From the NCBI GenBank assembly GCA_018267055.1, contig JAFDZF010000177.1, positions 1-34,114 of the forward strand: a stretch of DNA of 34,114 nt, in the 5' to 3' direction. The translations under genes and the position numbers were made by a program. This DNA is from Bacteroidota bacterium. GTDB taxonomy: Bacteria > Bacteroidota > Bacteroidia > Flavobacteriales_F > PHOS-HE28. Of this stretch, positions 22,166 through 34,114 are shown piece by piece. The notes under the pieces are model-generated. The model saw only the letters and a list, made by a program, of their open reading frames with translations, had not been told where the DNA came from and searched no databases. Within the stretch, counting starts at the first letter, position 1. Each line of letters starts with the position of its first letter.

Positions 22166-22576
22166 TCAGGGAAAGGGGAAGAAGAAATAGACCGCCGCCG
22201 CCCATTCCTTGCGCACCCCCTTGGCATAGCCGATGGTGCTGCGGGAGGCGTTCTCCACGGTGCCGTCGTCGCGGATGTAGCCGATGGTGCTGCGGGAGCT
22301 GTTCTCCACGGTACCGTCGTCACGGATGTAGCCGATGGTGCTGCGGCTGCTGTTCTCCACCGTGCCATCCGTCCGGATGTAGCCGATGGTGCTGCGCGAG
22401 GCGTTCTCGATGGTGCCGTCCTCCCGGATGTAGCCCACCGTGCTGCGGCTGCCGTTCTCGATCCGGCCGTCGGCGCTGATGTAGCCCGTGGTGCTGCGGC
22501 TGCTGTTCTCCAGGGTGGCTTGCGCCCGGACCGGGCCCGTGCCCAGCACGACCAGCAACAGCAGGATGGCGCGCAT
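22166..22576 (-). CDS. Exported 17-residue repeat protein (5-fold beta-flower type)
   Basis: A 136-aa protein with a signal peptide (residues 1-19, ending VRAQA) and six near-identical 17-residue units (about 22-123). The consensus is (V/I)ENxSRSTxGYIRxDGT; the last unit degenerates to YAKGV. A short hydrophobic tail follows (AAAVYFFFPFP). The pattern matches what I recall as the 5-fold beta-flower domain, in which each unit supplies strands to a small toroid; this naming is from memory. Function is unknown; a periplasmic or surface location is likely. It starts 3 bp after the Cys/His-rich miniprotein gene and is probably co-transcribed with it. Confidence 0.85.
   Translation of the reverse strand: MRAILLLLVVLGTGPVRAQATLENSSRSTTGYISADGRIENGSRSTVGYIREDGTIENASRSTIGYIRTDGTVENSSRSTIGYIRDDGTVENSSRSTIGYIRDDGTVENASRSTIGYAKGVRKEWAAAVYFFFPFP
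22208..22513 (-). repeat. Six tandem 51-bp coding repeats
   Basis: The motif CGATGGTGCTGCG (or close variants) recurs at 22231, 22282, 22333, 22384, 22435 and 22486, an exact 51-bp period. The array is wholly coding (17-aa units). The units at 22.25-22.38 kb are the most alike, suggesting recent duplication or slippage. Confidence 0.9.
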
Positions 22577-23474: not shown

Positions 23475-24233
23475 TCAGCGGCGGGCGATGACGGTGCTGT
23501 TGGCCTGGGCGGTGGCGGTCACCACCACGTCGTTGATGCACACGTGCGGCGGCAGCGTGGCGGCGTAGTGGACGATCCCCGCGACATCCTCGGCCGACAG
23601 GGGCCGGAAGCCCGCATACACCTGCTTGGCCCGGGCCGCATCGCCGTGGAAACGCACTTCGCTGAACTCCGTCTCGGCCGCGCCGGGCGCCACCTGCGTC
23701 ACCTTGATGCCCTGTTCCACCAGGTCGATGCGCATGGCCTTGGTCAGGGCGTCCACCGCGTGCTTGGTGGCGCAGTACACGTTGCCTTTGGGGTACACCT
23801 CCTTGCCGGCCGTGCTGCCGATGTTGATGATGTGGCCCCGCCCCCGCGCCACCATGCCCGGCACCACCGCGCGCGTCACGTACAGCAGCCCCTTCACGTT
23901 GGTGTCGATCATCCGCTCCCAGTCGTCCACATCGCCCGTCTGGATCGGGTCCAGGCCGCTGGCCAGGCCGGCGTTGTTCACCAGCACGTCAATAGCGGCC
24001 CATTCGGCGGGCAGCGCGGCGATGGTGCGCTCCACCTCCCCGCGGTCACGCACGTCCAGGTGCACGGCATGGGCCATGGGGCCGTGGAGGCCTTCCAGCT
24101 CGCGCTTCAGGGCGTCCAGCCTGTCGCGGCGGCGGCCGCAGAGGAGGACGTGCCAGCCGTCGGCGGCGAACCGGCGGGCGATGGCCTCGCCGAAACCGCT
24201 GGTGGCACCGGTGATGAGGATGAGCTTGGGCAT
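23475..24233 (-). CDS. Short-chain dehydrogenase/reductase (YdfG-like)
   Basis: A 252-aa NAD(P)-dependent oxidoreductase with a Rossmann fold. The cofactor loop is TGATSGFGEAIA (8-19), NNAG is at 86-89, and the catalytic residues are S140, Y153 and K157 (YCATK). CGRRRDRL after the second strand favours NADP. Closest in type to E. coli YdfG, which oxidises serine and 3-hydroxy acids; the real substrate is unknown. Length is typical. The ATG at 24233 has a TGACCTTTG box 4 nt upstream. Confidence 0.93.
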   Translation of the reverse strand: MPKLILITGATSGFGEAIARRFAADGWHVLLCGRRRDRLDALKRELEGLHGPMAHAVHLDVRDRGEVERTIAALPAEWAAIDVLVNNAGLASGLDPIQTGDVDDWERMIDTNVKGLLYVTRAVVPGMVARGRGHIINIGSTAGKEVYPKGNVYCATKHAVDALTKAMRIDLVEQGIKVTQVAPGAAETEFSEVRFHGDAARAKQVYAGFRPLSAEDVAGIVHYAATLPPHVCINDVVVTATAQANSTVIARR

Positions 24234-24246: not shown

Positions 24247-24298
24247 TGGACGGAAGCGTACCCCCAAGGCGTTCACCGCTCCCCGATGGGTTGCTTCG

Positions 24299-24375
24299 CG
24301 AAGGATCGAGCGGAGACGCCGGATGCGCGGCTTCGATCGGTCGAACCACTCCTTCCCCAACCACCGCGGATAGGC
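24299..24375 (+). repeat. 77-bp direct repeat, left copy
   Basis: Matches 26352-26428 in the same orientation at 75 of 77 positions (differences at 24339 and 24360). Read on the minus strand it contains the last codons of the HD gene (YPRWLGKEWF), but the stop TGA is changed to CGA here. It sits in the 290-bp gap between the dehydrogenase and the T9SS cargo gene, where I see no other gene. A bulged hairpin, GGTCTTGT/ACAAGGACC, lies at about 24443-24461. Confidence 0.95.
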
Positions 24376-24495
24376 GGAGGTCGTGCATAAGAATTGACCG
24401 GCCGCCCCGGGCCTGAAGCAAGAGCCCATGGGTCTATGAGCCGGGTCTTGTGTACAAGGACCGATGCCGGATGGCAATGGTCATGAACGGTGCGG

Positions 24496-24503
24496 GACCT
24501 TCG
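24496..24503 (+). promoter_or_regulatory. -7-like box of the T9SS cargo gene
   Basis: GACCTTCG, 20 nt before the ATG at 24524, the same octamer as before the DUF5522 gene. Confidence 0.3.
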
Positions 24504-24523
24504 TGCCCCCATCTCTTCTTCGC

Positions 24524-26308
24524 ATGATCAAGCACCCGTTCCTCTTTGCCGTGTTGCTGTGCTCCGCCGACCTGTGGGCCCAGGCCCCCGATATCGAGTG
24601 GAGCCATTGTTATGGAGGTACGAATGGAGAGAGCGTGGCCGTGGTACGCTCCACCCCGGATGGTGGTGCCCTCCTCGCTGGTACCACCGCTTCCCAGGAT
24701 GGCGACCCGGGGGGCACGATGGGTGGAATGGATCTCTGGATGGTGCGACTTGATGCGAACGGGGCCATCCTTTGGCAACATACCTATGGCGGAACCCAGG
24801 GAGAGAGCCTCGTGGGCCTGGAGGAAAGCGCGGATGGTGGTTATTTCCTGTTAGCCCTCACGGCTTCACAGGACGGGGACGTCACCGGTGCGCATGGCAT
24901 GGGCGACGTATGGGTCTTGAAAGTGAGCAGCATGGGCGATCTGTTGTGGCAGCGTGCATTGGGTGGCTCCGCCGATGAGTTCTTCATTGGCGGCGTCAAC
25001 TACTTTTTCTTCACCGATTATCTGGCGCCGGCCACCGATGGTGGATGTTTCGTGGCGTGTACCACGAACTCCAATGACGGGGATGTGAACGGTGGGCCGT
25101 TGGGTGCCTGGGACATATGGATCGTGCGGTTGGCGCCCGATGGGGATCTGGTGTGGCAACGTAGGCTAGGTGGCGACAATGTGGATCAGGTGTACGCCAT
25201 ACGGCCTGCAGCCGACGGTGGTGTCGTGGCAGTGGCGCAAGGCTCTTCGGACAATGGCGATATGGTGGGCCACCACGGAAATGGGGATGTGTGGGTGATC
25301 AAGCTCAGTTCGATGGGCGCGGTGGATTGGATGCGGACCTATGGCGGGAGCGAAGACGACCTGCCCCTGGACCTTCGGCTGGCCCCCGACGGAGGCTGGT
25401 ACATCGGAGCCATCACGAATTCCAACGATGGTGACGTGACCTTGGGCGCCGGTCAGGGCAATGGTGACCTGTGGATCTTGAAGCTGGATGAGGCAGGGGA
25501 CATCGATTGGCAGCGTGTACTGGGCGGGCCTGGAACGGAATCGAACGTATTCGTGAGGCCGCTGGCCGACGGTGGATGCATCCTCGCTTCCACTACCGGA
25601 TCACCGGATGGTGGCGATGTGGAGGGCTCGCATGTGGATCCTCTGGCCATGGAGGCTTACCCCGATTACTGGGTCCTGCGCCTGGATGTTTCCGGTACTG
25701 TGCTGTGGCAGCGCTGCTTGGGTGGTGGTCGCGAGGATCATGTGGTGGATCTGGCGCTGTCGCTCGATGGAGGTTGTGTGGTCCATGGTGGATCGGAGAG
25801 CGAGGATGGTGACATAACGGGTCATCAGGGCAGTTTCGACGGCTGGTTGGTGAAGTTGGATGGCCAGGGAGCATTGCAGTGGCAGCGCATACTGGGCAGC
25901 ACAGGGTATGATTGGCCCGCCAAGGTGATAGCGATGGTCGATGGTGGCTACGTGGCTTGCGGCGGTATCCCCGTGGGTGATGGTGATGCCACCGGTGCGG
26001 GCCATCACGGCGGCCCCGATATCTGGGCGGTGCGATTGGAGAATGATGGCACCATGGTGCCCGAAGTGCATACGCTTGGCCTTGGGCTGGCGCCCCAGCC
26101 GGCAAGTGACGCGGTGCACCTGACCATGGATGTTCCGGTGCATGATGCGCCCATCAGCATAGCCGATATGGCCGGCCGTACGGTGCTGCGCACTTGGATG
26201 AACGGTGATCGGGCGCTTCTGCGAACAGGCCACCTGCCGCGCGGTGTCTACATGCTCACCCTCGATACGCCGCAGGGACGGATCGGCCGAAGGTTGGTGC
26301 TGCAGTGA
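24524..26308 (+). CDS. Secreted repeat protein with T9SS type A sorting domain
   Basis: A 594-aa exported protein with a signal peptide (1-20, ending LWAQA). It has eight repeats of about 55-65 residues, each with a DGG core and a (S/T)xDGD turn followed by D(I/L)WxxxLDxxGxxxWQRxLGG, which suggests a beta-propeller with calcium-binding loops. The C-terminus (ISIADMAGRTVLRTW, then LPRGVYMLTLD and RRLVLQ) is a T9SS type A sorting signal. Function is unknown; adhesion or surface display is plausible. Codon use differs from neighbours: GAT, GGT, TGT and GTG-GAT runs are common, where flanking genes prefer GAC and GGC, and GC looks lower. The gene is bracketed by the 77-bp direct repeat, which suggests acquisition or rearrangement. 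Confidence 0.9.
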   Translation: MIKHPFLFAVLLCSADLWAQAPDIEWSHCYGGTNGESVAVVRSTPDGGALLAGTTASQDGDPGGTMGGMDLWMVRLDANGAILWQHTYGGTQGESLVGLEESADGGYFLLALTASQDGDVTGAHGMGDVWVLKVSSMGDLLWQRALGGSADEFFIGGVNYFFFTDYLAPATDGGCFVACTTNSNDGDVNGGPLGAWDIWIVRLAPDGDLVWQRRLGGDNVDQVYAIRPAADGGVVAVAQGSSDNGDMVGHHGNGDVWVIKLSSMGAVDWMRTYGGSEDDLPLDLRLAPDGGWYIGAITNSNDGDVTLGAGQGNGDLWILKLDEAGDIDWQRVLGGPGTESNVFVRPLADGGCILASTTGSPDGGDVEGSHVDPLAMEAYPDYWVLRLDVSGTVLWQRCLGGGREDHVVDLALSLDGGCVVHGGSESEDGDITGHQGSFDGWLVKLDGQGALQWQRILGSTGYDWPAKVIAMVDGGYVACGGIPVGDGDATGAGHHGGPDIWAVRLENDGTMVPEVHTLGLGLAPQPASDAVHLTMDVPVHDAPISIADMAGRTVLRTWMNGDRALLRTGHLPRGVYMLTLDTPQGRIGRRLVLQ

Positions 26309-26311
26309 ACG

Positions 26312-26327
26312 TCCGACGATGGTCGGA
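26312..26327 (+). terminator. Small hairpin after the T9SS cargo gene
   Basis: TCCGAC and GTCGGA form a 6-bp stem with a GATG loop, followed by AATAT. It lies 3 bp past the stop; termination is possible but the stem is short. Confidence 0.3.
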
Positions 26328-26351
26328 AATATCCCAGGGTGTTCAGCCTCC

Positions 26352-26428
26352 CGAAGGATCGAGCGGAGACGCCGGATGCGCGGCTTCGATCAGTCGAACC
26401 ACTCCTTCCCCAGCCACCGCGGATAGGC
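26352..26428 (+). repeat. 77-bp direct repeat, right copy (covers the HD gene 3' end)
   Basis: Partner of 24299-24375. It covers the last 13 codons of the HD gene including its TGA stop, plus 38 bp downstream. Similarity ends sharply at both edges (26351 and 26429 differ from the left copy). Confidence 0.95.
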
Positions 26429-27625
26429 CAGGTAATGCTTGGTCACGGGGGTGGCCAGGGCGAGGATGCCCTGCGTGTCGCTCGCCTCGGCGATGTCGCG
26501 GATGGTGCCGTCCTTGTACAGCAGCTCGATGCGGTCCTTGGCGGTGTCGTAGGCGTTGTTCACGATGCTGCCCGCCACCACGAAGCGGTCCGCGTCGGCG
26601 AGGTCGATCCGCAGGTGGTCGGCCACCTTGCGCTTGATCCGCTGGATGCGCTCGGGCTCCCAGGCCTCTTCGCGCAGGCGGATCCGCAGCGTGCGGCGCT
26701 CCACCAGGTCGCGGCTGAGGCAGGCCAGCACGGGGTCCGGGTGGCCGGTCCACACCTTCACGGCGCCCATGATGTCGTGGTCGTCCAGCTTCAGGAAGTC
26801 CTCGAGCACGGCCGGGTCCTGGAACGAGGCGCGGTCATGCCGCTCGCGCAGGAAGCGCAGCAGGGCGGGAGAGGCGAAGAGGTCGGTCCCGCGCATGGCG
26901 AGCTGCTTCGCGCGGCGCAGGGTCTCCACCAGCATGCCTTCCGCGGCCACCACGGTCTTGTGCAGGTAGACCTGCCAGTACATCAGCCGCCGCGCCACGA
27001 TGAACTTCTCGATGCTGTAGATGGCCTTCTCCTCCACGAGCAGCCGGTCATTGCGCACCTCGAGCATCTTGATGATGCGGTCGCCGCCGATCACGCCTTC
27101 GCTCACGCCGGTGTAGAAGCTGTCGCGGTTGAGGTAGTCCATGCGGTCCACGTCCAGCTGGCTGCTCACCAGCTGGTGCAGGGCGTGCTTGGGGTACTGG
27201 CCGCGGAAGATGCGGAGGCCGGTGGTGAGGGCGCCGTCGGACCGCTCGTTCAGCCGGTCCATCACCAGGGCGCTCACCTCCTCGTGGCCGATGCCTTCCA
27301 CCAGGCTGTGCTCCAGGGCGTGGCTGAAGGGGCCGTGGCCCACGTCGTGCAGCAGGATGGCGATGGCGGCCCCCAGGGCCTCCTCGTCGGTCACCTCGTG
27401 GCCCTTGCCGCGCAGGGTGTCGATGGCCAGGCCCATCAGGTGCATGGCCCCCAGGGCATGGTGGAACCGCGTGTGCAGCGCGCCGGGGTAGACCAGGTGG
27501 GAGAGCCCCGCCTGCTTGATGTAGCGCAGCCGCTGGAACCACGGATGGTCGATCACCCCCAGCACCGTGGGGTGCGGCACGGTGATGAAGCCGTAGATCG
27601 GGTCGTTGAGGATCTTCTTGGCCAA
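26390..27625 (-). CDS. HD-superfamily phosphohydrolase
   Basis: A metal-dependent phosphohydrolase of the COG1078/dNTPase-like class, 411 aa. Metal ligands lie in RFHHALGAMHL and HDVGHGPFSHALEH, with a later DVDRMDYLNRDS. Substrate is not determined; a (d)NTP or related nucleotide is likely. The start is uncertain because no ATG fits. I prefer TTG at 27625: the family's opening (KKILNDPIYGFITVP) begins there, and a TGACCTTTG box lies 5 nt upstream. A GTG at 27730 would add 35 residues that look non-conserved. The last residues (WLGKEWFD) lie in the 77-bp repeat and may not be ancestral. It is divergent from porX. Confidence 0.9.
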   Translation of the reverse strand: MAKKILNDPIYGFITVPHPTVLGVIDHPWFQRLRYIKQAGLSHLVYPGALHTRFHHALGAMHLMGLAIDTLRGKGHEVTDEEALGAAIAILLHDVGHGPFSHALEHSLVEGIGHEEVSALVMDRLNERSDGALTTGLRIFRGQYPKHALHQLVSSQLDVDRMDYLNRDSFYTGVSEGVIGGDRIIKMLEVRNDRLLVEEKAIYSIEKFIVARRLMYWQVYLHKTVVAAEGMLVETLRRAKQLAMRGTDLFASPALLRFLRERHDRASFQDPAVLEDFLKLDDHDIMGAVKVWTGHPDPVLACLSRDLVERRTLRIRLREEAWEPERIQRIKRKVADHLRIDLADADRFVVAGSIVNNAYDTAKDRIELLYKDGTIRDIAEASDTQGILALATPVTKHYLAYPRWLGKEWFD

Positions 27626-27630
27626 GCGCC

Positions 27631-27639
27631 CAAAGGTCA
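27631..27639 (-). promoter_or_regulatory. -7-like box before the TTG start of the HD gene
   Basis: TGACCTTTG on the minus strand, 5 nt before the TTG at 27625. Identical to the box before the dehydrogenase ATG, which argues for this start. Confidence 0.35.
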
Positions 27640-27721
27640 GCAAGTTCTTTCCATCCGCCCACGGGGTAGCTCGGGAACCGGCGTGGGGCGCCGGGCCGAC
27701 GGGTACATGGGACGACCGTCG

Positions 27722-27729
27722 TAAATTCA
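27722..27729 (+). promoter_or_regulatory. Candidate porX promoter box
   Basis: TAAATTCA lies 63 nt before the porX ATG, right after the palindrome ACGAC-C-GTCGT (27712-27722). A second candidate, TATCCTTCG, is at 27752-27760. I cannot choose between them. Confidence 0.3.
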
Positions 27730-27792
27730 CGCGCCGATCTGCGGAACGCCCTATCCTTCGGAAAGCGGGTGCAAGGCCGCTCGGGCGAACGA

Positions 27793-31556: not shown

Positions 31557-31722
31557 AGCGGCTATCCCCCGAATGCTTTCGGTAGCGAGCGAGGCGGATC
31601 TTTCGTCCAGGCGAGGCATGGAAGCCGAGCATGGCCGGGCGCCCTGTGAGGTCTTCCGCAACAAAGCATGGGCGAAAGGGACCCGCGCGTAGCCCGAAGG
31701 GTATTCGGGGAGGATGGCCGCT
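31557..31722. repeat. Inverted-repeat element (~165 bp) between convergent genes
   Basis: Imperfect terminal inverted repeats of about 30 bp bound this stretch. Left: AGCGGCTATCC, then CCCCGAAT, CTTTCGG and TAGCG. The complement of the right end reads AGCGGCCATCC, then CCCCGAAT, CCTTCGGG and CTACG. An inner pair, CTTTCGTCC and GGGCGAAAG, also complements. It fills the whole gap between the small anchored gene and the stop of the PKD gene. No ORF. It could be a MITE-like repeat, a long RNA hairpin acting as a two-way terminator, or a structured RNA. Confidence 0.6.
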
Positions 31723-34114
31723 ATTCATCCCCGCGCACCAGGGTGACGTGGCCGACGTACTCGCGCTCGTCCCCGTTCTTGTTCAGGATCACCTTCCACA
31801 CGTAGACGTCGGTCTTGCACGGGATGCCCCGGCTGTTGCCGTCCCAGGCCGTGTAGCGGTCGCGGCTGTCGTGGATGACCTCGCCCCAGCGGTCGAAGAT
31901 CAGGAAGCGGTACCGCCAGTCGTCGAAGCCGTTCAGCACCGGGACGAAGCTCTCGTTGAGGCCGTCCTGGTCGGGCGTGAACGCGTTCGGCGCATAGATG
32001 CCGGGATCGCTGGCCGCAAGCACCGCTTCGCAGGTGGTGTCCGGGCAGCCGAAGCTGTTGATCGCCACCAGGCACAGCGGGTAGCGGTCGTTCGGCCCCG
32101 CGGGGAAGAGGTGCAGCGGCTCGAACTCCGCGGAGGTGCCGCCATCGCCGAAATCCCACCACCAGCCGATGGCGCCCTCGCTGCTGTTGTGGAACTGGAG
32201 CGCATAGCTCACGCTCTCCATCGGCACATAGCTGAAGGCCGCTGTCGGCGAGGGATCGATGTGCACCGCATCGGTCACCGACAGGGTGTCCGTGCAGCCG
32301 CCGGCACCGGTGGCGATCAGGGTCACGTCGTAGTCGCCGGCCTCGAAGACGTGCCAGGGCGTTCCCTCCGTGCTGGTGCCGCCATCGCTGAACAGCCACT
32401 CGAAGCTGCTGCTGTTGAGCGAGCCGTTCGTGAACGTGATGGGGTAGCCGGCGCATCCGGGCTGCGGCTCCGGGGTGAAGGCCGCCACCGGCGTGGGATG
32501 CACCGTGAAGTCGTGCGTGCTCACGTCCGCACAGCCGTACTGGTTCGTCACGGTGAGCGTGATGGGGTACGTGCCCGGCCCGGCATAGGTGATTAGCGGG
32601 TTATTGAGCAGCGAGGTCTGCCCGTCGCCGAAGTCCCACACGTGGTCGATCTCCCCGGAGGAGCCGTTGATGAACTGTACGTCCACCGGTGAGGTGCAGC
32701 TCTGCCCGGGCGTAAAGGTGAACGCGCTCGTGGGCAGCGGGAAGGCCACCACGTCCGCATAGGCGGTGTCCCGGCAGCCGTTCAGGTTCTCCGCCACCAG
32801 CCGTATGGTCCAGGTGCCCGCCGTGGTGTAGGTATGCAGGGGGGATGCGCCGCTGAGGGTGTTGCCGTCGCCGAAGTCCCATTGGTAGAAGTCCGCCGAA
32901 ACGCTCGCATTGGCGAACTGGACATCGAGCGGGATGCAGCCGCTGAGGGGGGCCGGCGTGAAGGCGGCGATGGGCGTCACCTGCACCGTCACCGGCTGCG
33001 TCAGGGAAGCGGGGCAGGCGTTCAGCGACGAGACCACCGCGAGCGTCACGGGGTAGGTGCCCGCCGTGGCATAGGTATGCACCGGGTCCGTCAGGTCGGA
33101 GCCGCTGCCGTCGCCGAAGTCCCAGGCGATGTCCGCGATGTCCGGCGTGCCGTTGATGAACTGGAACGGCAGCCCCGCGCAGGTCGTCGCCGGCACCACG
33201 CTGAACGACACATCGGGCGAGGGCAGCACCGTGATGGTGACGCTCACGGTGTCGTAGCTGCAGCCGTTGTCACCGAAGAGCGTGGCGGTATAGGTGCCCG
33301 GCCCGGTGTAGGTGTTCGTCACGTCCGGGTCGGTGCTCACATTGCCGTCGCCGAGCTCCCAGTGCCAGTGGGTGACGCCGATGCTGTACTGCGTGAACTG
33401 CACCGTCAGGGGCGCGCAGCCGCTCGTGGTGTCGGTGTTGAAGAACGCGGTGATCGTGTTCGGCAGCACCGTCACCGTGTAGTCCGCCACGTCCGTGCCG
33501 CAGGCATTGGTGGCCGTGAGGGTGATGGTGAACGTGGTGTCGTTCGGCCCGGTCACGTAGGTGTGGTGCACCAGGCTGTCCAGCGTCGTGCTGGTGTGCC
33601 CGTCGCCGAAGTCCCACAGGTAGCTGTCGGCCTGGCCGATGGTGACGTTGCTGAAGGTGACCGGCCAGGGCGAACAGCCGTAGTCGAGGTCCGGTCCGAA
33701 GAGCGCCGTGGGCGAGGGATGCACGGTGATGGGCTGCGTGGCGGTCACCGTGGCGCAGAGGTTCGTCGCTGCGAGCGTGATGGTGTACGTGGTGTCGTTC
33801 GTCAGGCTCGCGAGGTAGGTCGTGCTGCCCGGTTCCTCCAGGGTGCTGGTGCTGCCGTTGCCGAGGTCCCAGGCATAGCTCACCCCGTCGCCGAAGCTGC
33901 CATTGTCCAGCATGACGAGCAGGGGGGCGCAGCCTTCCGTGGGCGAGGCGCTGAAGCCCACCGTGGGGCCTTCCCACACGGTGACGGAGCCGGTGGTGGT
34001 CCGGGTGCAACCCATCCCCGTGGACACGGTCAGCGTCACGGTGTAGGTGCCCACGGCCGCATAGGTATGCGTGGGCGAGGAGGCGGTGGAGGAGCCGCCG
34101 TCACCGAAGTCCCA
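31721..34114 (-). CDS. Giant PKD-repeat protein with gliding-motility type B T9SS sorting domain (5' end outside window)
   Basis: The visible 797 residues are the C-terminal part of a larger cell-surface protein; the frame stays open to the right edge, so signal peptide and start are missing. Nine PKD-type repeats are recognisable by W(D/E)(F/L)GDG cores (one is WLFSDGG, one WDLGNGS), each about 80-90 residues with GTYxVTLxV endings and a paired Cys (GCAPL, NxCG). The last ~95 residues (YAPNAFTPDQDGLNE, then RFLIFDRWGEVIHDS, YVWKVIL and GHVTLVRG) match the gliding-motility-associated C-terminal domain, a type B T9SS signal. Likely a surface adhesin or matrix-binding protein. The stop at 31721 abuts the inverted-repeat element. 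Confidence 0.93.
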   Translation of the reverse strand, partial: WDFGDGGSSTASSPTHTYAAVGTYTVTLTVSTGMGCTRTTTGSVTVWEGPTVGFSASPTEGCAPLLVMLDNGSFGDGVSYAWDLGNGSTSTLEEPGSTTYLASLTNDTTYTITLAATNLCATVTATQPITVHPSPTALFGPDLDYGCSPWPVTFSNVTIGQADSYLWDFGDGHTSTTLDSLVHHTYVTGPNDTTFTITLTATNACGTDVADYTVTVLPNTITAFFNTDTTSGCAPLTVQFTQYSIGVTHWHWELGDGNVSTDPDVTNTYTGPGTYTATLFGDNGCSYDTVSVTITVLPSPDVSFSVVPATTCAGLPFQFINGTPDIADIAWDFGDGSGSDLTDPVHTYATAGTYPVTLAVVSSLNACPASLTQPVTVQVTPIAAFTPAPLSGCIPLDVQFANASVSADFYQWDFGDGNTLSGASPLHTYTTAGTWTIRLVAENLNGCRDTAYADVVAFPLPTSAFTFTPGQSCTSPVDVQFINGSSGEIDHVWDFGDGQTSLLNNPLITYAGPGTYPITLTVTNQYGCADVSTHDFTVHPTPVAAFTPEPQPGCAGYPITFTNGSLNSSSFEWLFSDGGTSTEGTPWHVFEAGDYDVTLIATGAGGCTDTLSVTDAVHIDPSPTAAFSYVPMESVSYALQFHNSSEGAIGWWWDFGDGGTSAEFEPLHLFPAGPNDRYPLCLVAINSFGCPDTTCEAVLAASDPGIYAPNAFTPDQDGLNESFVPVLNGFDDWRYRFLIFDRWGEVIHDSRDRYTAWDGNSRGIPCKTDVYVWKVILNKNGDEREYVGHVTLVRGDE

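Follow-up and report, generated by a model that had tools for sequence, protein, structure and literature searches.

Displaced gene ends mark a probably integrase-free insertion hotspot between an HD hydrolase gene and an SDR oxidoreductase gene in a genus of Bacteroidota

Conserved gene pairs that enclose different genes, or none, from genome to genome have been described in Neisseria as minimal mobile elements, whose contents enter when the flanking genes undergo homologous recombination (Saunders and Snyder 2002; definition in PMC3898611). Foreign DNA may also be acquired by homology-facilitated illegitimate recombination (HFIR), in which one of its ends joins by homology and the other illegitimately, usually with deletion of recipient DNA, and single crossovers of truncated circles in E. 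coli have duplicated 109-950 bp of the lacZ gene end (PMC3240628). In Vibrio, the sequential displacement of T6SS effector 3' ends has been attributed to HFIR, and a displacement model also exists for the C-terminal ends of Rhs proteins (PMC5361080).

The junction between an HD-domain hydrolase gene (HD) and an SDR oxidoreductase gene (SDR) examined in the present study resembles a minimal mobile element in having conserved flanks and variable or absent contents, but its insertions leave truncated ends of the flanking genes, which persist as scars because the insertions are additive, and the comparison is between species, not strains. The duplicated gene ends (38-640 nt) recall those obtained in E. 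coli (109-950 bp), although the latter were laboratory events; to our knowledge, HFIR is known mostly from laboratory transformation. As in T6SS effector and Rhs displacement, each new module is anchored upstream and moves the older 3' ends further downstream, leaving displaced ends in series; in contrast to those systems, the anchors are housekeeping genes, the cargo is unrelated to the anchor, and there is no toxin-immunity logic. A search within one library of papers returned no report of such displaced-gene-end scars for this phylum.

The window, by which we mean the whole stretch of 34,114 nucleotides that was analysed, belongs to a 203-contig assembly (G000). An earlier note on this DNA had pointed out a direct repeat at 24299-24375 and 26352-26428, equal at 75 of 77 bases and in the same orientation; the repeat is real, and ungapped extension lengthens it to 24293-24375 and 26346-26428 (79/83 bases, 95%), compared with a chance level of at most 57% for random 83-mers against a 2-kb target (30 trials). 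The right copy (26346-26428, minus strand) is the functional 3' end of HD (26390-27730, minus strand), which anchors the insertion. It was correctly recognised as such in the earlier note, except that it comprises the final 12 rather than 13 codons plus the stop (26390-26428; 39 nt, encoding AYPRWLGKEWFD and the stop), followed by 44 nt of post-stop sequence. The left copy (24293-24375, minus strand) is a displaced HD tail of the same 12 codons and 44 nt, in which the stop TGA is replaced by CGA and lost, and it runs directly into SDR (23475-24233, minus strand) with no second cargo copy there. On its other side HD has a conserved neighbour, porX (T9SS response regulator, NF052313; 27793-29346, plus strand), and the true HD start is probably near 27616, where its homologues begin.

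The 1970-bp segment between the copies (24376-26345) holds one gene (24524-26308, plus strand), coding for a 594-aa protein with SBBP-like beta-propeller repeats and a T9SS type A sorting domain (27.3 bits against TIGR04183, cut-off 23; the Pfam model scored below its own cut-off). The original description of a T9SS cargo gene lacking an integrase and a transposase holds, as neither was seen between the repeat copies or next to them. The codon use of the cargo gene had also been called odd, and a composition check bore this out: GC3 is 0.69, placing the gene at the 4th percentile among 450 gene calls from 568 kb of its genome and at the 7th percentile of 29 T9SS-cargo-like genes, a set in which at least one call (EF-P) is false. 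GAT/(GAT+GAC) (0.66) and GGT/Gly (0.35) both lie above the 95th percentile and are likewise unusual among the T9SS cargo of this genome. A near-full-length DNA homologue of the insert is absent from 44 genomes of the genus, where matches are short and partial, and in this comparison the cargo gene is species-unique. Two other repeat-protein genes are present in the window, one (22166-22576) coding for a small protein with five 51-bp repeats (N-S-SRST-GYI-DG units), conserved beside lpxD in part of the genus, and the other (31721-34114) for a large PKD-like repeat protein cut by the contig end, with a C-terminus that by eye is of the gliding type (T9SS type B-like).

A genome-wide search with the 77-mer, as the earlier note had advised, returned exactly two copies and a next-best match of 82% over 38 nt; the 77-mer has no further copy and, contrary to the suggested alternative, is not a dispersed repeat. 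A weak match in C25 looks like chance, and a hairpin role for the 44 nt post-stop was rejected, their fold being no better than that of shuffled sequences (z 0.40). Repeats are easily mis-assembled, and the window lies within a 203-contig assembly, but the two copies differ at 4 of 83 bases and have unique flanks on both sides, and the same anatomy recurs in independent assemblies including a single-contig genome, which makes an assembly artefact extremely improbable. Elsewhere in the same genome (C132, within L117), a 114-bp segment at 88819-88932 is an 85% copy of the 3' end of a sorting-domain gene (89089-90060), 160 bp downstream of that gene, and is possibly a second displaced tail.

Across 45 genomes of the genus, mostly MAGs and compared between species, the HD-SDR junction is an insertion hotspot. 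The region between the two conserved genes is empty in some genomes, with a gap of 6 (G019), 10 (G016), 16 (G024), 26 (G020) or 40 bp (G029), and in others spans 222 bp to 17.8 kb of unrelated contents, including T9SS cargo and toxin-antitoxin pairs, such as a DUF433/PIN pair in G033, as well as RelE-like and zeta-like genes, judged by sequence only, in G003 and G008. Displaced HD tails number 12 in 10 genomes (G000, G003, G005, G008, G022, G031, G033, G037, G039 and G041), the one in G005 lying beside SDR on a different contig from HD. Truncated SDR 5' ends, or heads, were found in about six (G005, G015, G018, G025, G033 and G039). Tail and head copies keep the parental orientation and have variable edges. 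The empty sites in relatives and the displaced tails of the same gene elsewhere uphold the proposal of an insertion at a gene 3' end. At the control genes lpxC-fabZ, ald and porX, no displaced tail was found beside the gene, only contig-end fragments or distant paralogues. The residues of HD past the conserved PRW/PRS motif are highly variable between species, a pattern suggestive of repeated replacement of this gene end. Ku (PF02735) was detected in four of 44 genomes (G000, G005, G018 and G022), all four with HD or SDR scars (one-sided p 0.008, a post hoc value that ignores relatedness).

Integrative elements classically target gene 3' ends and replace the end of the gene. The same targeting and replacement could be produced here by site-specific integration at the HD 3' end, by a recombinase that was later lost or is supplied in trans, and the earlier note had accordingly likened the repeats to attL/attR. 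Most HD tails end close to the stop, but their starts differ in nearly every event (-38, -61, -78, -86, -92, -94, -95, -107, -112, -175 and about -327 nt relative to the stop), so that there is no fixed core common to all insertions and the junctions differ; no recombinase was found in the inserts examined, nor any mobility gene in the window insert or in the subset of HD-SDR inserts scanned. Given further that the pattern recurs at six unrelated genes in another genome (G010, below), we regard site-specific integration as very unlikely, and the attL/attR-like reading as unsupported. A system for shuffling surface proteins, also raised in the earlier note, was too strong a claim, as the hotspot additionally takes up toxin-antitoxin and other genes and looks like a site of generic recombination. 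No dedicated shuffling system is in evidence; the repeat pair is the scar of a genuine insertion, and the site a genuine hotspot.

Several displaced tails are close to the functional HD end of their own genome (100% over 51 nt in G037 and 97% in G031), and the closest match to the tail is the HD gene of the same genome in 8 of 11 cases, from which it follows that most donors were close relatives or that the tails are local copies. Local copies would arise if an insertion process such as transposition, template switching or break repair duplicated 40-300 bp of target so that it flanked the new DNA, and the window pair, 95% identical and reaching 44 nt past the stop, also suits such a target duplication. 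Against it, the tails range from about 38 to 640 nt and are thus not target-site duplications of constant length, there is no transposase, each of three HD tails in series in G041 has its own terminal codons and stop, the functional tail of G022 is of a different type from the displaced one, and differences between tails are concentrated at third codon positions. Taken together, these observations leave target duplication unlikely, though still worth considering. Serial tails, in G041 and at a carboxyl transferase locus in G010, could instead reflect local tandem duplication of the HD tail and adjoining DNA, one cargo copy then being deleted or diverging, and the fusion of an SDR head to an HD tail in a single reading frame in G039 is shaped like a tandem junction. 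The genes separating successive tails are nevertheless unrelated (there is no cargo homology between the G041 units), the left tail of the window enters SDR without a second cargo copy, and neither the third-position bias nor the cross-species import described below is expected from such a process, which we consider improbable.

The codon-position test compared functional and displaced tails in 18 pairs and counted 84, 74 and 203 differences at codon positions 1, 2 and 3, respectively, with a third-position share of 203/361 over all pairs and 156/259 without G022; sites are not independent, short pairs are uninformative, and it is chiefly the longer pairs (clpB, lyase, acs and carboxyl transferase in G010, and G022) that carry the result. 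If a local copy decayed neutrally, the three counts should be equal, and the bias observed therefore indicates that most of the divergence arose while both ends were in working genes. On these codon counts, most tails appear to have diverged in separate lineages. The coding part of the window pair has just two differences, one of them the lost stop, which decides nothing in this test and leaves the pair indistinguishable from a simple duplication.

One cross-species import of an HD tail together with cargo was observed. Between G022 and G004, the final ~300 nt of HD together with 3.8 kb of cargo are mostly 99-100% identical (lower, 72-98%, around +2.1 to +2.8 kb), compared with about 82% in the HD body and porX region, making the two genomes the largest outlier in tail versus body identity among 630 pairs. 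The native HD tail of G022, 90% identical to that of G013, lies behind the import at +4361 to +4710, with G013-like DNA further on, and in HD the native type gives way to the foreign one within about 20 nt of the point at which the displaced tail starts. In this one case a homologous join is thus evident at one end of the incoming DNA, and little or no recipient DNA was lost, unlike in HFIR with its habit of deletion (PMC3240628). The type change in G004 is further downstream than in G022, which suggests that both imports came from a common third donor. G004 is compatible with purely homologous recombination in the flanks; for G022 and the other tails a second step, either non-homologous or by single crossover, is required, and non-homologous junctions were seen.

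The complete, single-contig genome of a relative (G010) was surveyed over 1.14 Mb (29%), yielding six further genes with displaced 3' tails, all on the same strand and downstream. These are priA, with its tail behind two T9SS proteins, an acyl-CoA dehydrogenase gene (behind BRO-N and AbiU2 genes), a beta-eliminating lyase gene (behind an RND efflux operon), acs, clpB, with a 643-nt tail behind PLD, PP2C phosphatase and kinase-like genes (C1 919759-929897, L299), and a carboxyl transferase gene (C1 1089149-1091851, L308), whose two serial tails recall the HD array of G041. The earlier note had asked whether other cargo genes are bracketed alike: none is this clearly in 568 kb of the window genome, but in G010 six other housekeeping genes have displaced 3' tails. 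The priA tail is limited to G010 within the genus, marking HD-SDR as the hotter site. The genes behind clpB look like a defence island, and a paaZ-like gene, named by eye, has a duplicated 5' head.

We consider it probable that foreign genes are imported by recombination anchored in gene 3' ends, in an additive manner akin to minimal mobile elements, with HD-SDR serving as an integrase-free site of gene exchange. Incoming DNA, derived from the corresponding locus in related cells and bearing cargo behind its own version of the HD 3' end, would recombine with the resident HD via that 3' end. Where its other end failed to recombine homologously, with an illegitimate join or a single crossover of a circularised fragment instead, cargo would be added rather than swapped, HD taking the incoming 3' end and the resident end being left as a displaced tail, in the order HD-cargo-tail-SDR seen in the window. 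The additive step could equally be one-ended addition of linear DNA (HFIR) or the single crossover of a circle; we infer natural transformation as the route and an event of this kind in the window. DprA, which is not competence-specific, is present in 42 of 44 genomes and would permit host competence. A process particular to the genus, possibly with enzymes of its own, that preferentially adds foreign modules and a spare gene-end copy at 3' ends genome-wide is doubtful, with a small chance of being correct. What the scars suggest is ordinary recombination, by which foreign DNA came in with a gene-end copy of its own, rather than a dedicated mobile element.

Displaced gene ends preserve a legible history of genes added without mobile elements, from which such events could be counted and ordered. 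They would show that surface proteins, toxin-antitoxin systems and defence-like modules can enter these uncultured bacteria via generic recombination at the ends of housekeeping genes, and a genus with many natural scars would make the natural rate and junctions of HFIR directly measurable.
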